A program made the translations under genes and the position numbers. The notes beneath the pieces were generated by a model, which had not been told where the DNA came from, did not search any database, and saw nothing but the letters and a program-made list of their open reading frames with translations. A stretch of DNA of 43,338 nucleotides. It comes from a virus. The stretch covers positions 1-43,338 of the IMG/VR virus record IMGVR_UViG_3300043540_000481. The stretch is one strand, 5' to 3'. Shown in pieces: positions 32,912 through 40,898 of this stretch (its first letter is position 1; each line of letters opens with the position of its first letter).

Positions 32912-34690
32912 CTAATCGGGATTGCGGGGCACGTCCGGCCGCGCGGGCACATCATGCAGACGGCAATCGAGGTAGCGGCGCACACGCTCGTCCGTTCGCT
33001 TCAGCTTCGTCTTCATAACACGCCCAAAACGCGTCTCATGGATTGGCCTTCTGGCATTGGCGAGGCTCCAGGAGACATAGGCATCGTAGACAGCCCTCGC
33101 CGTCTCATGATGACCTTCCGCGGGCTCCAGGCAGTCGCGCATGAAATCCGAGACCGGATCCATCTCGCTCCGGTAATCCGCCGTCGCGGCGATCACCCCC
33201 TCCGGCGAGGGAAGGCCCGTCTCGCAAAACTTTAGCGCGCCCTCGATCAGCCAGTTCAGAATGCCGGAATATTCGCCGGCGAAATACGCGATCATCTCGT
33301 CGAATGGCCGCTGGCGTTCTGGCGGAATCTCGACAGGCCAATGCACGACGGCCATGCGGCGCCAGATGCCATTGTCGGTGCCGTCGATGCGCGGATAGCC
33401 ATTGCCGGACATATGGCACGTGAAGAAGGGCGCGAATTCGAAATAACCCTTAAAGAGCGTCCGCACCGGGATCTTCTCGCCGCCGGTGAGCTTCTTCACG
33501 AGATCCTCGTGAAGCGGCTTGTCGGCGGGAAGCTCGAGCACGCGCAGGCAGCGCACGCCATAGAGCCGCGCGAGATCGGGGGATGCGCCGCCGGCGCTGC
33601 GATTGCCTTCCCCCGTGATGGATTCCGCCGGAAGGCCCGTCGCCAGCGGACCCAGCACCCGCATCAGGGTTTCAAGGAACACGCTCTTGCCATTGGCGCC
33701 AGAGCCATAATGGAAGACCACCTTCTGCACGGTCACGCCAAGCAGCCCAAGACCAGAAAACACCTGCACGAAGGCGCGCACGGAGGCATCCGGCAGGCAT
33801 TCATCGAGGAACGCGCGCCACCTCGGACATCCGGCCTCTGGCTGATACGTCAGATCCAAAAACTTCGTCAGCATGTCCTCGCGCCGGTGACCCTCCTTCG
33901 CCTCGACATGGGCCTTCATGCGAACCGCATCGGGGTCGGGACATTCATCGTCCCGCTCACGGACGAGCCTCAGAGTATGTTCGCGGACAGCAAAGACAAA
34001 AGGATCCGGGTTGAAATCATCCGGATCGACGGCGCAATGCGGTCCGGCGCATATCAGCATCGACGAGATCCGCGCCGAATTCTTCGACGAGACGCCAAAT
34101 TTGCGCCGCGCGATCTTGCGCTTCTGCAGGGCCGCCCGCACCGCCTCACCCGCCTCGACGGTCACGCGCAGGCGCCGCGCCTTTGCCTTCTGCTCATCGG
34201 TCCATTCCGGCATCGATTTTTCGAGAGCGGAGAGCTCGTCAGACGCGCTATAGGCCTCCTCGCAAATCTGCTTCTCGCGAGGCGTCATGGTCAGAAAATC
34301 AGCCTCTAACCCGATCCGATCGCCGACCTTTTGCGCCACGGCATGGGCGTAGAGATTGCCATTGTCCGTGTCCCAATATTTCCCGCGCCACGCGACATAT
34401 GAGGGGGTCTTCGCGCCAGCCTCTTTCAGCACGCGCAGATCATCGCCGAAATGTGCAAGCAGCCGCTTGCCGTTATCCGTGTCGGAATGATCGAGCCCGG
34501 CGCAGAACTGGATGACACGGGGCGGGATATTCCCGTCATCGCCGCCAGACGGGCCGGACTCGTTGGCGTCCTCATCGATCCCATCGTGAGGGATGTGCCC
34601 GCGGGCCGCCGCGGAGTCATTCCGCATTCCGGCATTCGCCGGAAATTGAAGAACCTGAGCCTGCTCAATCGATTCGACGATTTGGCTCAT
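32912..34690 (-). CDS. SF3 helicase / phage primase-helicase, D5-P4 family
   Basis: The protein has 592 residues. The N-terminal about 280 residues include DTDNGKRLLAHFGDDLRV and a D5_N-like region (LTYQPEAGCPRWRAFLDECLPD). The superfamily 3 helicase core has Walker A GSGANGKSVF near residue 330 and the following LELPADKPLHEDLVKKLTGGEKIPVR and FFTCHMSGNGYPRIDGTDNGIWRR, typical of P4 alpha/D5-type enzymes. It unwinds the origin during replication initiation. The start overlaps the primase stop (ATGA). The adjacent iteron region is its likely target. Confidence 0.92.
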   Translation of the reverse strand: MSQIVESIEQAQVLQFPANAGMRNDSAAARGHIPHDGIDEDANESGPSGGDDGNIPPRVIQFCAGLDHSDTDNGKRLLAHFGDDLRVLKEAGAKTPSYVAWRGKYWDTDNGNLYAHAVAQKVGDRIGLEADFLTMTPREKQICEEAYSASDELSALEKSMPEWTDEQKAKARRLRVTVEAGEAVRAALQKRKIARRKFGVSSKNSARISSMLICAGPHCAVDPDDFNPDPFVFAVREHTLRLVRERDDECPDPDAVRMKAHVEAKEGHRREDMLTKFLDLTYQPEAGCPRWRAFLDECLPDASVRAFVQVFSGLGLLGVTVQKVVFHYGSGANGKSVFLETLMRVLGPLATGLPAESITGEGNRSAGGASPDLARLYGVRCLRVLELPADKPLHEDLVKKLTGGEKIPVRTLFKGYFEFAPFFTCHMSGNGYPRIDGTDNGIWRRMAVVHWPVEIPPERQRPFDEMIAYFAGEYSGILNWLIEGALKFCETGLPSPEGVIAATADYRSEMDPVSDFMRDCLEPAEGHHETARAVYDAYVSWSLANARRPIHETRFGRVMKTKLKRTDERVRRYLDCRLHDVPARPDVPRNPD

Positions 34691-35952
34691 GCAGCCTCGA
34701 TCTTTTGCGCGCGGCGGTCATCGTTATAGTCATGGCCGCGCGACGGAGAACAGAGCTTGACCGTCAGCCACGGATAGGCATATGCGAACCGCCTCGCCGC
34801 CCGCTCCATCGCCATCCGCGTGAAGAACGGTTCTGAATCGCCATCGCCGAGAAGAAAGAGCTCGCGCACGCTGTCCGGCACCCGAATGACCGGGAAAGAC
34901 GAATCATCAAGCGGCTCGCCGTCCGGCACGAAGACCGGCCGCTGAACGCCATTCTTCCCTGGCCGCTTTTCAGTGGGGTGCCTCACGCGCCCCGCCGCCT
35001 TTCCCGCGAGATTCCCGAGGCTCAGCGCCGAGCGGAACTCCGCGCCATCGAGCAGCGCATGCCGCGCTTCCAAAAGCTCGCAATAGACCGAAAGCACCGT
35101 CTCGATGCCCTCGCCGAGGAAGAGCCGCGACGGTTCGCCTCCACGGGCCAAAAACACCGTGCCGCCCTTGACCGAACCCCGCACCTTCCTGGCGGGGAAA
35201 ACCTCGCCGGATCCGGGATGGATAATCCGCGCCTTGCCGTCCGGCTGACACAGGTCGATCCATGTCTGGTGCACGCCAGCGAAGCGCCCGTCTGGCCCCT
35301 CGATGGCGGCGAGCATCGCCGGACCTCGATGAATGATCTTGCCGCCCTGAAACTTCGGCCTGTCGAAATAGGCAAGATCCCCATGGCACCGCAGCCTGGC
35401 ATTGACTGGCGCGGCGATCGCGCGGCGATGCAAATATTCCTTTGCCGTCTCCCACGCCGCGGCTGTTGCGCCCTGCCAAATCCGCCATGCGCGCTTGCGC
35501 TCTTCCTCCCGGTAATAGGCTTCCTCTTTCGCCTTAGCCGCCAGCCGCGCTTCACCACCCGCATGCGCGGCCGCCGCGCGTTCCCCGATGGGCCGCCGCT
35601 CGGCTGGTGAAATCCGCGAGCCGCGATCCGGCGGCGGCCTGCCAGTGACAATCTCGACCGCCTTCAGGAAATCGGCGCCATCGATGTGCCGGACAAGCTC
35701 GATCGCATCGCCGCCTGTTCCCGACGCCCGGCAGTTCCAGACGTTCTTGCGCACATTGACGGCAAAGCGGTCACGTCCGCCGCAGCCAGGGCATGGGACG
35801 CCATTATCGCCGTGCATCGCGCGCGACCAGAGCCCCCGCCGCGCGAGCTCGTCCTGCACGCGCACGCGCCTGGCGTCCTCGATCCAGGCCTGAAACGCGG
35901 GGCCGCTCATGCGATACGCCTCCGGCACCGGACGCCATTCAGCCGTTTTCAT
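34687..35952 (-). CDS. Toprim DNA primase with CHC2-like zinc region
   Basis: The protein has 421 residues from MKTAEWRPVPEAYRM. The start overlaps the dCTP deaminase stop by 14 bp; a longer frame upstream is not needed. Zinc region: Cys54, Cys57 and Cys74 (VPCPGCGGRDRF..VWNCRASGTGGDAI), but the fourth ligand expected at residue 77 is Ser. The Toprim part has LGEGIETVLSVY, LLGDGDSEP and HDYNDD. It synthesises primers for phage replication together with the SF3 helicase encoded next. Long extra segments such as RPGKNGVQRPVFVPDGEP separate the Toprim motifs. Confidence 0.88.
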   Translation of the reverse strand: MKTAEWRPVPEAYRMSGPAFQAWIEDARRVRVQDELARRGLWSRAMHGDNGVPCPGCGGRDRFAVNVRKNVWNCRASGTGGDAIELVRHIDGADFLKAVEIVTGRPPPDRGSRISPAERRPIGERAAAAHAGGEARLAAKAKEEAYYREEERKRAWRIWQGATAAAWETAKEYLHRRAIAAPVNARLRCHGDLAYFDRPKFQGGKIIHRGPAMLAAIEGPDGRFAGVHQTWIDLCQPDGKARIIHPGSGEVFPARKVRGSVKGGTVFLARGGEPSRLFLGEGIETVLSVYCELLEARHALLDGAEFRSALSLGNLAGKAAGRVRHPTEKRPGKNGVQRPVFVPDGEPLDDSSFPVIRVPDSVRELFLLGDGDSEPFFTRMAMERAARRFAYAYPWLTVKLCSPSRGHDYNDDRRAQKIEAA

Positions 35953-36412
35953 AAATAGCTCCAACCGGCCAATCAGGTTGGTTCTGGTATTTACCATCCC
36001 CGTAGGGCGCCTCCGTGGGCTCATCGAGGAACTCGAACTTGATCTGGCAGACTGGCGCCCCCGCCTCATAGATCACGGTATCGCGCCCGAGATTGACCAA
36101 TTCGACGGTAAGGTAACCTTCCCACCCCGGATCTAGATGCGTGTTGAACGCCGAGACGAACACCCGCGGGTAGCTCGACTTGTCGAGCACCGAGCCGCAC
36201 AGGTTCGCGGGAAGGCAAAACCGTTCGATCGTCGAAGCCAGCGCCGCGTCACCAGGCCCAAGCCGCAGCCTCCGCGCGATCCGTACGTCATAGCTGCACG
36301 CCGAAAGCCCATAGGACTTTCCATCAAACACCCCGAGATCGCTAAATGGAGCGATCAGCGGCGGCGTCCTGAAGCACAACCGGCGAATCGTCTGCGCGGA
36401 AAGAACGCTCAT
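35939..36412 (-). CDS. dcd: dCTP deaminase / dUTPase family
   Basis: The protein has 157 residues from MSVLSAQTIRRLC; its ATG overlaps the previous stop. Key motifs are GSVLDKSSYPR (the family's RSS-like motif, here KSS), THLDPGWEGYLTVELVN and the C-terminal YGDGKYQNQ that closes over the nucleotide. The enzyme makes dUMP precursors from dCTP or dUTP, shaping the nucleotide pool for replication. It is shorter than E. coli Dcd (193 residues). Whether it deaminates, hydrolyses or does both cannot be read from the sequence. Confidence 0.88.
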   Translation of the reverse strand: MSVLSAQTIRRLCFRTPPLIAPFSDLGVFDGKSYGLSACSYDVRIARRLRLGPGDAALASTIERFCLPANLCGSVLDKSSYPRVFVSAFNTHLDPGWEGYLTVELVNLGRDTVIYEAGAPVCQIKFEFLDEPTEAPYGDGKYQNQPDWPVGAIYENG

Positions 36413-36705
36413 CAAACGGACTCCTGGATCTTGGCGCAGATGCGCGTGAAAACATCTATCGAGGTTGGCTTGCATGGCTTGAACCGCCGCGCGGCGAAGG
36501 TCCATTCGCGCCCGCTCAGGGGATTCCGGGGCAGAACGATCTCTTCCAGTCTAAGGCCAATTTCACAGATGGAATAATCGACGATATCGCGGACCGTGTA
36601 GACATGGCCTTCGCACAGCCGGTCGAGGAATTGATTATTGCATTCCGGAATCGGCTTGCCGTTGATGCAGACGACATTCTGGCCGGGATGGAAGAGCGTG
36701 CTCAC
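36412..36705 (-). CDS. Small phage protein of unknown function; GTG start
   Basis: The protein has 97 residues. It starts at GTG sharing one base with the TAG of the methyltransferase gene and ends overlapping the next ATG. The pattern FHPGQNVVCINGKPIPE, GHVYTVRDIVDYS, LRLEEIVLP and EWTFAARRFKP is that of a widespread small phage protein resembling an SH3-like barrel. I know no function. Its tight place inside the replication operon suggests it acts with DNA metabolism. Confidence 0.75.
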   Translation of the reverse strand: MSTLFHPGQNVVCINGKPIPECNNQFLDRLCEGHVYTVRDIVDYSICEIGLRLEEIVLPRNPLSGREWTFAARRFKPCKPTSIDVFTRICAKIQESV

Positions 36706-37343
36706 TACGCGGCCTCCGGATTTGTTACATCAAACTTCCCGGCCTCATTGCCAAAAGCATCCCACCCGGCACGCGTCTCGCGCGAGAAGAGCTCGGCATA
36801 GGGCCCCTCGCAGTAGCGCTCGACGCGCGCATACATCTCATCGGGCTTTCGCGAATGCTCGCGCACAGGCTCCATGATGATCTCGCGCACGTCCTTCGCC
36901 GCGCGCCTGCAGTTGCCGCGACGGCCGAGCAGGACGAATTCCGCGTTCTTGCGCGTCGTCAGCCCGAGCCCGACATGCAGATCGCTTTCATCGATGCCAC
37001 CGATGAGCCTGAACTGATCCACCGCAAAAGACCGCCGCAGCTTCACCCATGTGAAAGCCACGGAGGAATATTTGAAGCCCCACGCCTCCATCACAGCAAA
37101 GGCATCGCGAAGACATGGCCCTGTCGCCCACAAAAAAAGATGGCTGCCGCCAGGATGCGCCAGCTCACGCACCGGGAGCGCCGCGATCGCATCAAGGCTC
37201 ATCACTTCATAATGTTTTCCGGCGTCGCGGCGGCTGCTCCAGTTCTCCACTTGCAGCGCCGTGTAGGATTTGAAATGCCACGGCGGATCCGCGCAGATCG
37301 CGCGGTACGCATGCGGCTTAAGACCTCCGAATGGCCAGGTCAT
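36705..37343 (-). CDS. MT-A70-type adenine-N6 DNA methyltransferase
   Basis: The protein has 212 residues from MTWPFGGLKPHAYRAICADPPW. DPPW at residues 19-22 is the catalytic motif of the MT-A70/beta-class amino-methyltransferases. GGSHLFLWATGPCLRDAFAVMEAWGF and KNAEFVLLGRRG..., followed by REHSRKPDEMY, are the other family blocks. No restriction endonuclease is nearby, so it is an orphan enzyme. Its start overlaps the stop of a GcrA-like gene (ATGA). GcrA proteins act with adenine methylation in Alphaproteobacteria, so a functional pair is likely. The target sequence is unknown. Confidence 0.92.
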   Translation of the reverse strand: MTWPFGGLKPHAYRAICADPPWHFKSYTALQVENWSSRRDAGKHYEVMSLDAIAALPVRELAHPGGSHLFLWATGPCLRDAFAVMEAWGFKYSSVAFTWVKLRRSFAVDQFRLIGGIDESDLHVGLGLTTRKNAEFVLLGRRGNCRRAAKDVREIIMEPVREHSRKPDEMYARVERYCEGPYAELFSRETRAGWDAFGNEAGKFDVTNPEAA

Positions 37344-38083
37344 CCCGCGCGCTCCATTTCCCGCTTGAGCGCACGAATGTGCGATGCCGCTTTGAACTCT
37401 CCAAATTCCTTCGCCGTATCGATAAATTCGCTCATGAGATCCGCGTTCCGGCCGCCGCCCGAAAAGACCGTCTTGTAATACGCAGCCTTCCAGTGGCAGG
37501 CACAATAAGGCTTCTTATCGAGCGCCGGGGCGGCACAAAACCTCATCTCCTCGCCATCGCCTTTGGGATAGCGGCACTGTCCGGAAGAAAGCAGCGCGAA
37601 GGGCAGCCACAAGGCCCCGTCCGCGTTGATCATGCGCTCCTTCACAGGCTGGCGCGCCAAGGATCCTTCCGGTTTCCGGAGACTCGAAAGCCGCGAGAGG
37701 AACGAAGCCCCCCTGGCGCGCCTCACCGCCTTCCATTCGAGCCCCAACTCCCGCGCCCGGTTCAGGGCCGCCGGCGCCGTGATGCCCCCGCCAATCCGTT
37801 CCGCCGCCTCGCGCGAGTTGAACCCAGCCTCGATGCAATAAGCAAGCAGCGCGTCGCGCTCTTGCGTCCAGACCTTGCCGCGGCATGTGCGGCCGTCTTT
37901 TTTGTACGGCCCTCTCGCGCCGCCATTCTTCCAGGAAATTTCAAGCCGCGCCGCCCGGCCGATCACTGCCGCCCGCGTCTTTCTCGAAAACTCCCGCGCG
38001 GCCTGCTCGCAGGTCATTCCAGCCGCCGCGCACCGCCGCAGGAGCGAGTCTTCTTCCTCTGTCCAGGCGCGGCTCAGGGGCAT
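37340..38083 (-). CDS. GcrA-like transcription regulator with duplicated DNA-binding domain
   Basis: The protein has 247 residues. Residues 5-49 (WTEEEDSLLRRCAAAGMTCE..TRAAVIGRAARL) are the GcrA helix-turn-helix. Residues 70-115 (VWTQERDALLAYCIEAGFNS..APAALNRARELGL) are a second, diverged copy. The C-terminus has the GcrA Cys/His cluster: Cys170 (GQCRYPKGD), Cys183 (FCAAP) and Cys194/Cys196/His197 (PYCACHWKAAY). GcrA is a sigma70-associated activator that responds to adenine methylation. Host GcrA has one N-terminal domain and is about 170 residues, so this is an enlarged phage version. It overlaps the TSCPD-like gene upstream and the methyltransferase gene downstream. Confidence 0.88.
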   Translation of the reverse strand: MPLSRAWTEEEDSLLRRCAAAGMTCEQAAREFSRKTRAAVIGRAARLEISWKNGGARGPYKKDGRTCRGKVWTQERDALLAYCIEAGFNSREAAERIGGGITAPAALNRARELGLEWKAVRRARGASFLSRLSSLRKPEGSLARQPVKERMINADGALWLPFALLSSGQCRYPKGDGEEMRFCAAPALDKKPYCACHWKAAYYKTVFSGGGRNADLMSEFIDTAKEFGEFKAASHIRALKREMERAG

Positions 38084-38451
38084 GGCAACAACTCCCCCAT
38101 GTCCGGCCCTGGCGCGATTGGGTCAGGCCGCGCAACAGCGGCCGCGCCGCCCTCATCCCCCAGCAGATCGAGCACATCGCCGATGAGGCTGGCCGGCCGG
38201 TTATCGGAGAGCCGCGCCACCGCATGGCGCAAGGTCTCCACGGGCACGCCATATTGGAGCGCGATCGAGATGATGACGGCGGCATCGCGCAGAACGCATT
38301 GCTCGCCATTCTCGGCATGGTCCGAGGAAACGAAAATCTCGGCGGCACGGCCATCCCCGAAGCGCCCGATCGAGACCGCATAGCCGCGGCTTCCACGATT
38401 GAGGCGCAGCGTCTCGCATTCCCGCCGGTTTGGAAGAACATTCCGGCTCAT
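38074..38451 (-). CDS. Stand-alone TSCPD-like domain protein
   Basis: The protein has 125 residues. GYAVSIGRFGDGRAAEIFVSSD, then CVLRDAAVIISIALQYGVPVETL and RLSDNRPASLIGDVLDLL, follow the pattern of the TSCPD domain found at the C-terminus of B12-dependent ribonucleotide reductases. Here it stands alone with no reductase in the window. It overlaps both neighbours (ATGA before, 10 bp after). It may modulate the host reductase or bind nucleic acid or metal; this is inference. Confidence 0.75.
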   Translation of the reverse strand: MSRNVLPNRRECETLRLNRGSRGYAVSIGRFGDGRAAEIFVSSDHAENGEQCVLRDAAVIISIALQYGVPVETLRHAVARLSDNRPASLIGDVLDLLGDEGGAAAVARPDPIAPGPDMGELLPCP

Positions 38452-38876
38452 GCCGCCGCCTCGCAGCCTTCGCGTTTTTCTTGTTTCGCTTCGCGCGCCC
38501 GCACGGGGGCGCCGTCAACGCACAGCCGCCAGCCGCCGCCATAACGGATATTTTCAATCCGCAGACCGAGCGGATTGAGCTTTTGGCGCAGCCGCGTGAA
38601 ATAGACGGAAAGCGCGCGTAGCACATAATCAGGCCCTCCGTCTTCACGATCGCCCCAGAGCTGCTCAATGAGCTGCTCCGCCAGAACAGGGCGATCCGCC
38701 GCCGCCAGCAGAAAGACAATCCGGAATTCGGTGCGGGAAAACCAGCGGACCGTCACGCCGCCATCGATGAAGCGCAGCGCCGCGCGCTCCGGCAAGCTGA
38801 TGATCACGTCCTCCGGACGCACATATACCATCTCGCACGCGCGCCGGGCTCCAAATGTCCCGCAGATCACTGTCAT
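38448..38876 (-). CDS. Single-domain OmpR/PhoB-type winged-helix protein
   Basis: The protein has 142 residues. Residues 40-118 (VRWFSRTEFRIVFLLAAADRPVLAEQLIEQLWGD, ALSVYFTRLRQKLNPLGLRIENIRYGGGWRL) are a complete response-regulator C-terminal DNA-binding domain. There is no receiver domain, so activity is not set by phosphorylation. The short basic tail is Arg/Lys/Glu-rich. Start and stop overlap the neighbours (ATGA). It is a likely regulator of the phage operon. The same architecture is often seen in alphaproteobacterial phages. Confidence 0.85.
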   Translation of the reverse strand: MTVICGTFGARRACEMVYVRPEDVIISLPERAALRFIDGGVTVRWFSRTEFRIVFLLAAADRPVLAEQLIEQLWGDREDGGPDYVLRALSVYFTRLRQKLNPLGLRIENIRYGGGWRLCVDGAPVRAREAKQEKREGCEAAA

Positions 38877-40635: not shown

Positions 40636-40643
40636 AAGGGCAA

Positions 40644-40672
40644 GGATAACGGGTTAAAACCCGCTTTGTCAA
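40644..40672 (-). promoter_or_regulatory. Leftward early promoter PL with operator in the spacer
   Basis: On the minus strand TTGACA (40667-40672) and TTATCC (40644-40649) are separated by 17 bp. The palindrome CGGGTTAAAACCCG (40650-40663) lies inside the spacer, so bound repressor would block RNA polymerase directly. Confidence 0.75.
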
Positions 40673-40862
40673 CGGGTCATTACCCGATTTTTTCACGGGC
40701 ATCGGGCGGGTAAAATCCCGTTTATGGCGAACTGCACACCGCAAAACGCGGCGTTGAGATGTCCATGAAGCGTCTCGCTGATATCCTAGAGAACGGTTTT
40801 ATCGCGATGTAATCAAAATCGGGTTTTAACCCGCTTTATCGCTTGACGCGGGTTTTAACCCG
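40650..40862. promoter_or_regulatory. Five related 14-bp operators in the divergent control region
   Basis: O1 40650-40663 (CGGGTTAAAACCCG), O2 40673-40686 (CGGGTCATTACCCG), O3 40707-40720 (CGGGTAAAATCCCG), O4 40820-40833 and O5 40849-40862 (both CGGGTTTTAACCCG). O1, O4 and O5 have perfect 6-bp arms around 2 bp; O2 and O3 keep shorter arms. O1 and O5 sit in promoter spacers. The 99 bp between O3 and O4 contain no gene. The arrangement resembles a phage repressor/anti-repressor switch. Confidence 0.85.
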
Positions 40863-40870
40863 TTTATACT
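40843..40870 (+). promoter_or_regulatory. Rightward early promoter PR with operator in the spacer
   Basis: TTGACG (40843-40848) and TATACT (40865-40870) are separated by 16 bp. Operator O5 (40849-40862) fills the spacer. It drives the rightward small-gene operon beginning at 40899. Confidence 0.8.
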
Positions 40871-40898
40871 CGCTCCATCACAACCGATGGAGCCGCAG

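Follow-up and report, generated by a model that had tools for sequence, protein, structure and literature searches.

A GcrA-family regulator with tandem DNA-binding domains is translationally coupled to an MT-A70 methyltransferase in a phage replication operon

The window, a virus record of 43,338 bases analyzed at its full length, has a G+C content of 63.7% and contains tailed-phage terminase, portal, capsid, tape-measure, and baseplate genes. On its minus strand, a 247-aa GcrA-like regulator (37340–38083) is followed by a 212-aa MT-A70 adenine methyltransferase (36705–37343). The stop codon of the first gene and the start codon of the second share an ATGA overlap (GGATGACC, 37340–37343, minus strand), with a GGAG located 8 nt upstream, which bore out the translational coupling proposed in an earlier sequence-only reading of this DNA. 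The two genes were included in a longer chain of overlapping minus-strand genes, which extends upstream to a gene encoding a TSCPD-domain protein (38074–38451; PF12637, 1.5e-4, just under the cut-off) that overlaps the GcrA start. Downstream of the methyltransferase, the chain continues through a 97-aa gene without a family match in the Pfam and PHROG scans (36412–36705), a dCTP deaminase-like gene with its likely ATG at 36412 (35939–36412; PF22769, 2.3e-17; PHROG 1663, 5e-40), a primase-like gene (DUF7146/Toprim, 34687–36069; PHROG 510, 8e-63), and a D5-type primase/helicase (32912–34690; PHROG 1156, 7e-120). The GcrA/MT-A70 pair is thus located within a replication operon, and the replication module is the reported place of phage methyltransferases with CcrM-like specificity (PMC5537653). 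The same operon also encodes a small protein (38448–38876, minus strand) whose C-terminal DNA-binding domain is of the OmpR type (PF00486, 1e-7) and in which a receiver domain was not found.

A sigma70-like promoter on the operon strand (40643–40672, minus strand; TTGACA-18-TATCCT, a match to the consensus only) is a possible promoter of the operon. The divergent promoter region at 40636–40886 contains no GANTC site. Five palindromic repeats of CGGGTNNNNACCCG in this region, at 40650, 40673, 40707 (one mismatch), 40820, and 40849, overlie or adjoin two opposed sigma70-like promoters and look like a candidate repressor operator cluster governing the early operon. Within the phage genes, GANTC occurred 48 times against 67.7 expected (z −3.3 under synonymous shuffling) and CTNAG was similar (z −3.0), so that GANTC is mildly low and CTNAG equally so, a Markov expectation exaggerating the depletion.

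The assignment of the regulator to the GcrA family was borne out by a PF07750 match (E 1.2e-18; 68.5 bits, cut-off 26.9) that falls into two stretches, 37928–38068 and 37472–37870. As a side observation, the control genome of Sulfolobus acidocaldarius also gave an above-cut-off match to the GcrA Pfam model. DNA-binding domain 1 (37928–38068, residues about 6–52) is alignable to C. crescentus GcrA (7ye1/5yiu) and is the MYB-like N-terminal domain seen in 5yiv; its HMM i-E of 2e-19 includes the contribution of its own sequence to the HMM seed. The C-terminal domain (37466–37606), of the sigma-interacting type, carries the Cys/His pattern C170-x12-C183-x10-C194-xx-H197 and is alignable to the sigma-interacting domain of C. 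crescentus GcrA. Between them, DNA-binding domain 2 (37730–37873, residues about 71–118) was detected with an i-E of 1e-4 by an HMM whose training excluded it, and it is 37% identical to domain 1 (pairwise E 3e-8). The AlphaFold2 model consists of two three-helix units and one C-terminal unit, with pLDDT above 90 for unit 1 and the sigma-interacting domain and a moderate pLDDT of about 60–77 for unit 2. Unit 1 resembles the GcrA DNA-binding domain on methylated DNA (5yiv; TMt 0.91, rmsd 0.8), and the C-terminal unit resembles the sigma-interacting domain with sigma70 domain 2 (5yix; TMt 0.79, rmsd 1.2). Both structures were among the best PDB matches of the model, with Foldseek E-values that are weak (0.04–0.2) because the units are small. 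The HMM, the alignment to domain 1, and the predicted two-unit model support that the second DNA-binding domain is real, as the sequence-only reading had proposed together with the Cys/His C-terminus. The protein scored 39 bits against the cut-off of 280 for the host GcrA equivalog NF050816.

The recognition helices differ from the TRNAVIG form of the family, reading TRAAVIG in domain 1, without the usual Asn, and TAPAALN in the diverged domain 2. The Asn was kept in all nine DBD-bearing GcrA relatives reached via the methyltransferase search described below; in the GcrA set collected by motif, the TRNAVIG consensus is biased by a search motif that itself contained the Asn. The GcrA of Brevundimonas phage Bajun likewise lacks it, and the Asn is a common feature of the GcrA family rather than a defining one. 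Tandem DNA-binding domains were also found in Bajun and in the viral records L244, L256, L200, L240, and L173, and in every tandem case, the window included, domain 2 is without the TRNAVIG motif. It is therefore doubtful that the protein recognizes two spaced sites of one kind. The second domain of the proposed "duplicated reader" is present, but with its diverged recognition helix, beside a domain 1 without the Asn, it does not appear to be a copy of the reader; we read it as a predicted additional, different DNA contact. The missing Asn in domain 1 and the divergence of domain 2 suggest that the DNA specificity of the protein is possibly altered. In L244, the tandem-domain GcrA is located about 0.4 kb from a diverged MT-A70 gene, which is the design of the window reached with a different enzyme.

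The methyltransferase matched PF05063 over the full profile, 1–172 (E 2.1e-22, 80.3 bits against a cut-off of 23.9), and PHROG 359 (3.8e-67), and METTL3 and MTA1 chains are among its solved relatives. Its DPPW catalytic motif (37278–37289, minus strand), a near-invariant column in the MT-A70 alignment, is intact. The listed open reading frame of 266 aa opens at a TTG far upstream, and the ATG at 37343 is the likely start giving the 212-aa product, to which the query protein used in the searches (P0002) adds one N-terminal residue. No PF01555 (CcrM-type) domain was matched within the window. Membership in the known phage GANTC family (PHROG 799) was considered and rejected, as the enzyme is unrelated in sequence to phiLM21_p027 (BLASTP E 0.6). 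No restriction endonuclease was recognized next to the gene, the adjacent 97-aa gene matches no family, and no nuclease family was found among the neighboring open reading frames scanned with Pfam and PHROG. As far as these neighbors reach, the description of the enzyme as an orphan holds.

The sequence-only reading had made its case depend on the co-occurrence of the two genes in other phages, and the pair does recur there. A search based on the MT-A70 protein yielded 80 viral loci, among them 47 whole records, of which 13 hold a GcrA-family match. In 8 of these 13, the gap between the two genes was below 500 bp, compared with 0.57 records expected under random placement. The record L009 encodes an MT-A70 protein 68% identical to that of the window, and its GcrA gene overlaps the MT-A70 start by the same four bases. 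Direct searches of viral contigs with the GcrA protein of the window, or with either of two individual GcrA proteins from phages, gave nothing useful; a reverse search with a degenerate DNA pattern for the GcrA recognition helix gave 50 viral records with GcrA. MT-A70 was present in 8 of the 50, with gaps below 1.2 kb in six (0.41 expected), of 1.3 kb in one, and with the genes at opposite record ends in the last.

Other adenine-type writers were observed beside GcrA in the same 50 records. PF01555 methyltransferases were located within 500 bp of GcrA in 5 of 19 records, and strong matches to PHROG 799, the family of phiLM21_p027, lay less than 103 bp away in 4 of 8 records (0.34 expected below 500 bp); PF05869 (Dam) was near GcrA in none of 4. 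Among the controls for clustering in the early region, cytosine methyltransferases were within 500 bp of GcrA in none of 15 records, and RusA in 1 of 9. The methyltransferases differed from the controls in proximity (Fisher p 0.01, reverse set), p-values here being optimistic because some records are near-copies of one another (such as L183, L184, L205, and L248) and the set is not fully independent. A tree of 134 MT-A70 proteins provides an argument that is not tied to such near-copies in the same way. The 16 proteins that have GcrA nearby are dispersed over it, a distribution that requires 15 changes of this label, and supported branches force at least 10 of these. These surveys show that phages assembled such pairs many times.

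The pair recurs often without being obligatory. None of the seven named phage records carrying GcrA contains MT-A70, which therefore is not a necessary companion. Conversely, MT-A70 relatives at 60–70% identity often adjoin resolvases that we named RusA- or RuvC-like from reading the sequences rather than from a family search, with GcrA absent from the record, and therefore the enzyme does not need GcrA. No GcrA-like domain was found in the fetched flanks of 53 MT-A70 loci in bacterial genomes.

The surveys also uncovered other arrangements of these domains. In L018 (4351–5004), the start of an MT-A70 gene, whose product is 62% identical to that of the window, is overlapped by a gene for a phiLM21-type, PHROG 799-like methyltransferase, placing two unrelated methyltransferases in tandem; the MT-A70 motif may therefore differ from that of the phiLM21-type GANTC family. 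Short open reading frames in L027 (4642–4983), L076 (2279–2569), and L099 (1432–1671) encode the GcrA sigma-interacting domain without a detectable DNA-binding domain, the one in L027 overlapping a methyltransferase start. In L048 (2414–3196) and L055 (4204–4944), a GcrA-type DNA-binding domain without the sigma-interacting domain is located directly upstream of MT-A70. A 650-aa open reading frame in L182 (7126–9075) has the GcrA-type sigma-interacting domain at its C-terminal end and is possibly a fusion to another protein.

Each part is known in phages singly. Earlier papers describe phage-encoded GcrA (PMC3556154, PMC6630229, PMC11309003, PMC12429752) and CcrM-like phage methyltransferases (PMC5537653), a discussion of alphaproteobacterial phages names GcrA and CcrM-like methyltransferases separately (PMC9437464), and we found no account of the linked, coupled pair in the open-licence literature. 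In C. crescentus, the DNA-binding domain of GcrA reads m6A promoters and its sigma-interacting domain binds sigma domain 2 (PMC7403470, PMC3667746). The window resembles this GcrA/CcrM system in combining a GcrA-family regulator with an adenine methyltransferase as writer, but the host writer is of the PF01555 type whereas that of the window is MT-A70, the two genes of the window overlap, and its putative reader has two DNA-binding domains and falls far below the host equivalog score. The phiCbK-like phages also encode GcrA homologs, for which a role in changing the cell cycle of the host has been proposed (PMC3556154); unlike in the window, a tandem DNA-binding domain was not detected in the fetched phiCbK region and there is no MT-A70 in the record. 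The enzyme phiLM21_p027 methylates GANTC (PMC5537653) and, like other GANTC phage enzymes, is an adenine methyltransferase that mimics CcrM and is encoded within or next to the replication module; its family adjoins GcrA in viral contigs as well. It differs from the window enzyme in sequence family and in having no phage GcrA partner in that report. The STEC prophage enzyme M.EcoPA8orf6770P shares the MT-A70 family, the DPPW motif, and a neighboring nucleic-acid-binding partner, PNB-2, which is not described as GcrA, and its preferred substrate is 16S rRNA (PMC10810198).

The best explanation, to which we give an even chance, is that the pair forms a phage-borne reader-writer module. Early in infection, the MT-A70 enzyme would place N6-methyl groups on adenines within a short motif, in the DNA of the phage and perhaps also of the host. 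The co-translated GcrA-like protein would bind promoters bearing the motif via domain 1, its C-terminal domain would recruit or activate the sigma70-RNA polymerase, and domain 2 would most likely add affinity or touch a second, different sequence. The location of the pair in the replication operon would let freshly copied DNA be marked and certain promoters be turned on in step with phage replication. The domain match to C. crescentus GcrA, the ATGA coupling, the proximity counts, the three adenine-type writer families, the scattered tree, and L244 argue for this module; the MT-A70 relatives without GcrA, the seven GcrA phages without MT-A70, the tandem in L018, the loss of the Asn in domain 1, and the GANTC-free region at 40636–40886 argue against it. 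That DNA is the substrate, and that there are a methylated motif, binding to m6A and to sigma70, and promoters that respond, would follow by analogy with C. crescentus. A rather unlikely extension is a private epigenetic code, in which the writer would mark a non-GANTC motif and a reader with an altered helix and a second DNA-binding domain would read only that mark, as an autonomous circuit of methylation-gated transcription, built repeatedly by phages from different writers.

In a possible, though not a probable, account of the same genes, the operon would group two functions that are separate from each other: MT-A70 would serve in anti-restriction, the GcrA-like protein would exploit host CcrM marks at phage or host promoters, and their adjacency would reflect a common need for early expression. 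The existence of each gene without the other is consistent with it, as is the moderate depletion of GANTC in the phage genes, as if host-methylated sites were rationed, although CTNAG is similarly depleted. Cytosine methyltransferases, however, would be equally fit for anti-restriction and are not found beside GcrA (0 of 15 records), RusA adjoins it in 1 of 9, and three adenine-type methyltransferase families do adjoin it. It is improbable that the GcrA-like protein and MT-A70 form a holoenzyme in which the former directs the enzyme to its DNA target, in the manner of the nucleic-acid-binding partners of other MT-A70 enzymes: the E. coli prophage MT-A70 needs neighboring PNB-2 for activity and target choice (PMC10810198), and a protein with only the GcrA-type DNA-binding domain or another HTH protein lies just upstream of MT-A70 in L048, L055, and L006, but the sigma-interacting domain is retained in the window, MT-A70 relatives without GcrA are equal in length, and GcrA is also found beside unrelated methyltransferase families, which would not have an interface in common. 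We consider it very improbable that the enzyme acts on RNA such as rRNA, unconnected with what the GcrA-like protein reads, since despite the preference of a phage MT-A70 with bound partner for 16S rRNA (PMC10810198) and the METTL3 chains among the solved relatives, PHROGs and PADLOC group the enzyme with DNA methyltransferases (by annotation only) and the recurrent adjacency to a DNA-methylation reader points to DNA.

Returning to the reader-writer module, the phage pair might also rewire the host cycle, an outcome that we infer, since the methylation specificity and the binding to m6A and sigma70 are themselves predicted. Among bacterial proteins that convert adenine methylation into transcription, GcrA is the best known. 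If phages own a writer linked to a reader, they could use replication as a timer for their genes, tag their own DNA as distinct from that of the host, or override the cell cycle of the host. A cassette of two genes, found with several unrelated writers, would make it possible to test outside an essential host system how methylation marks acquire their meaning.
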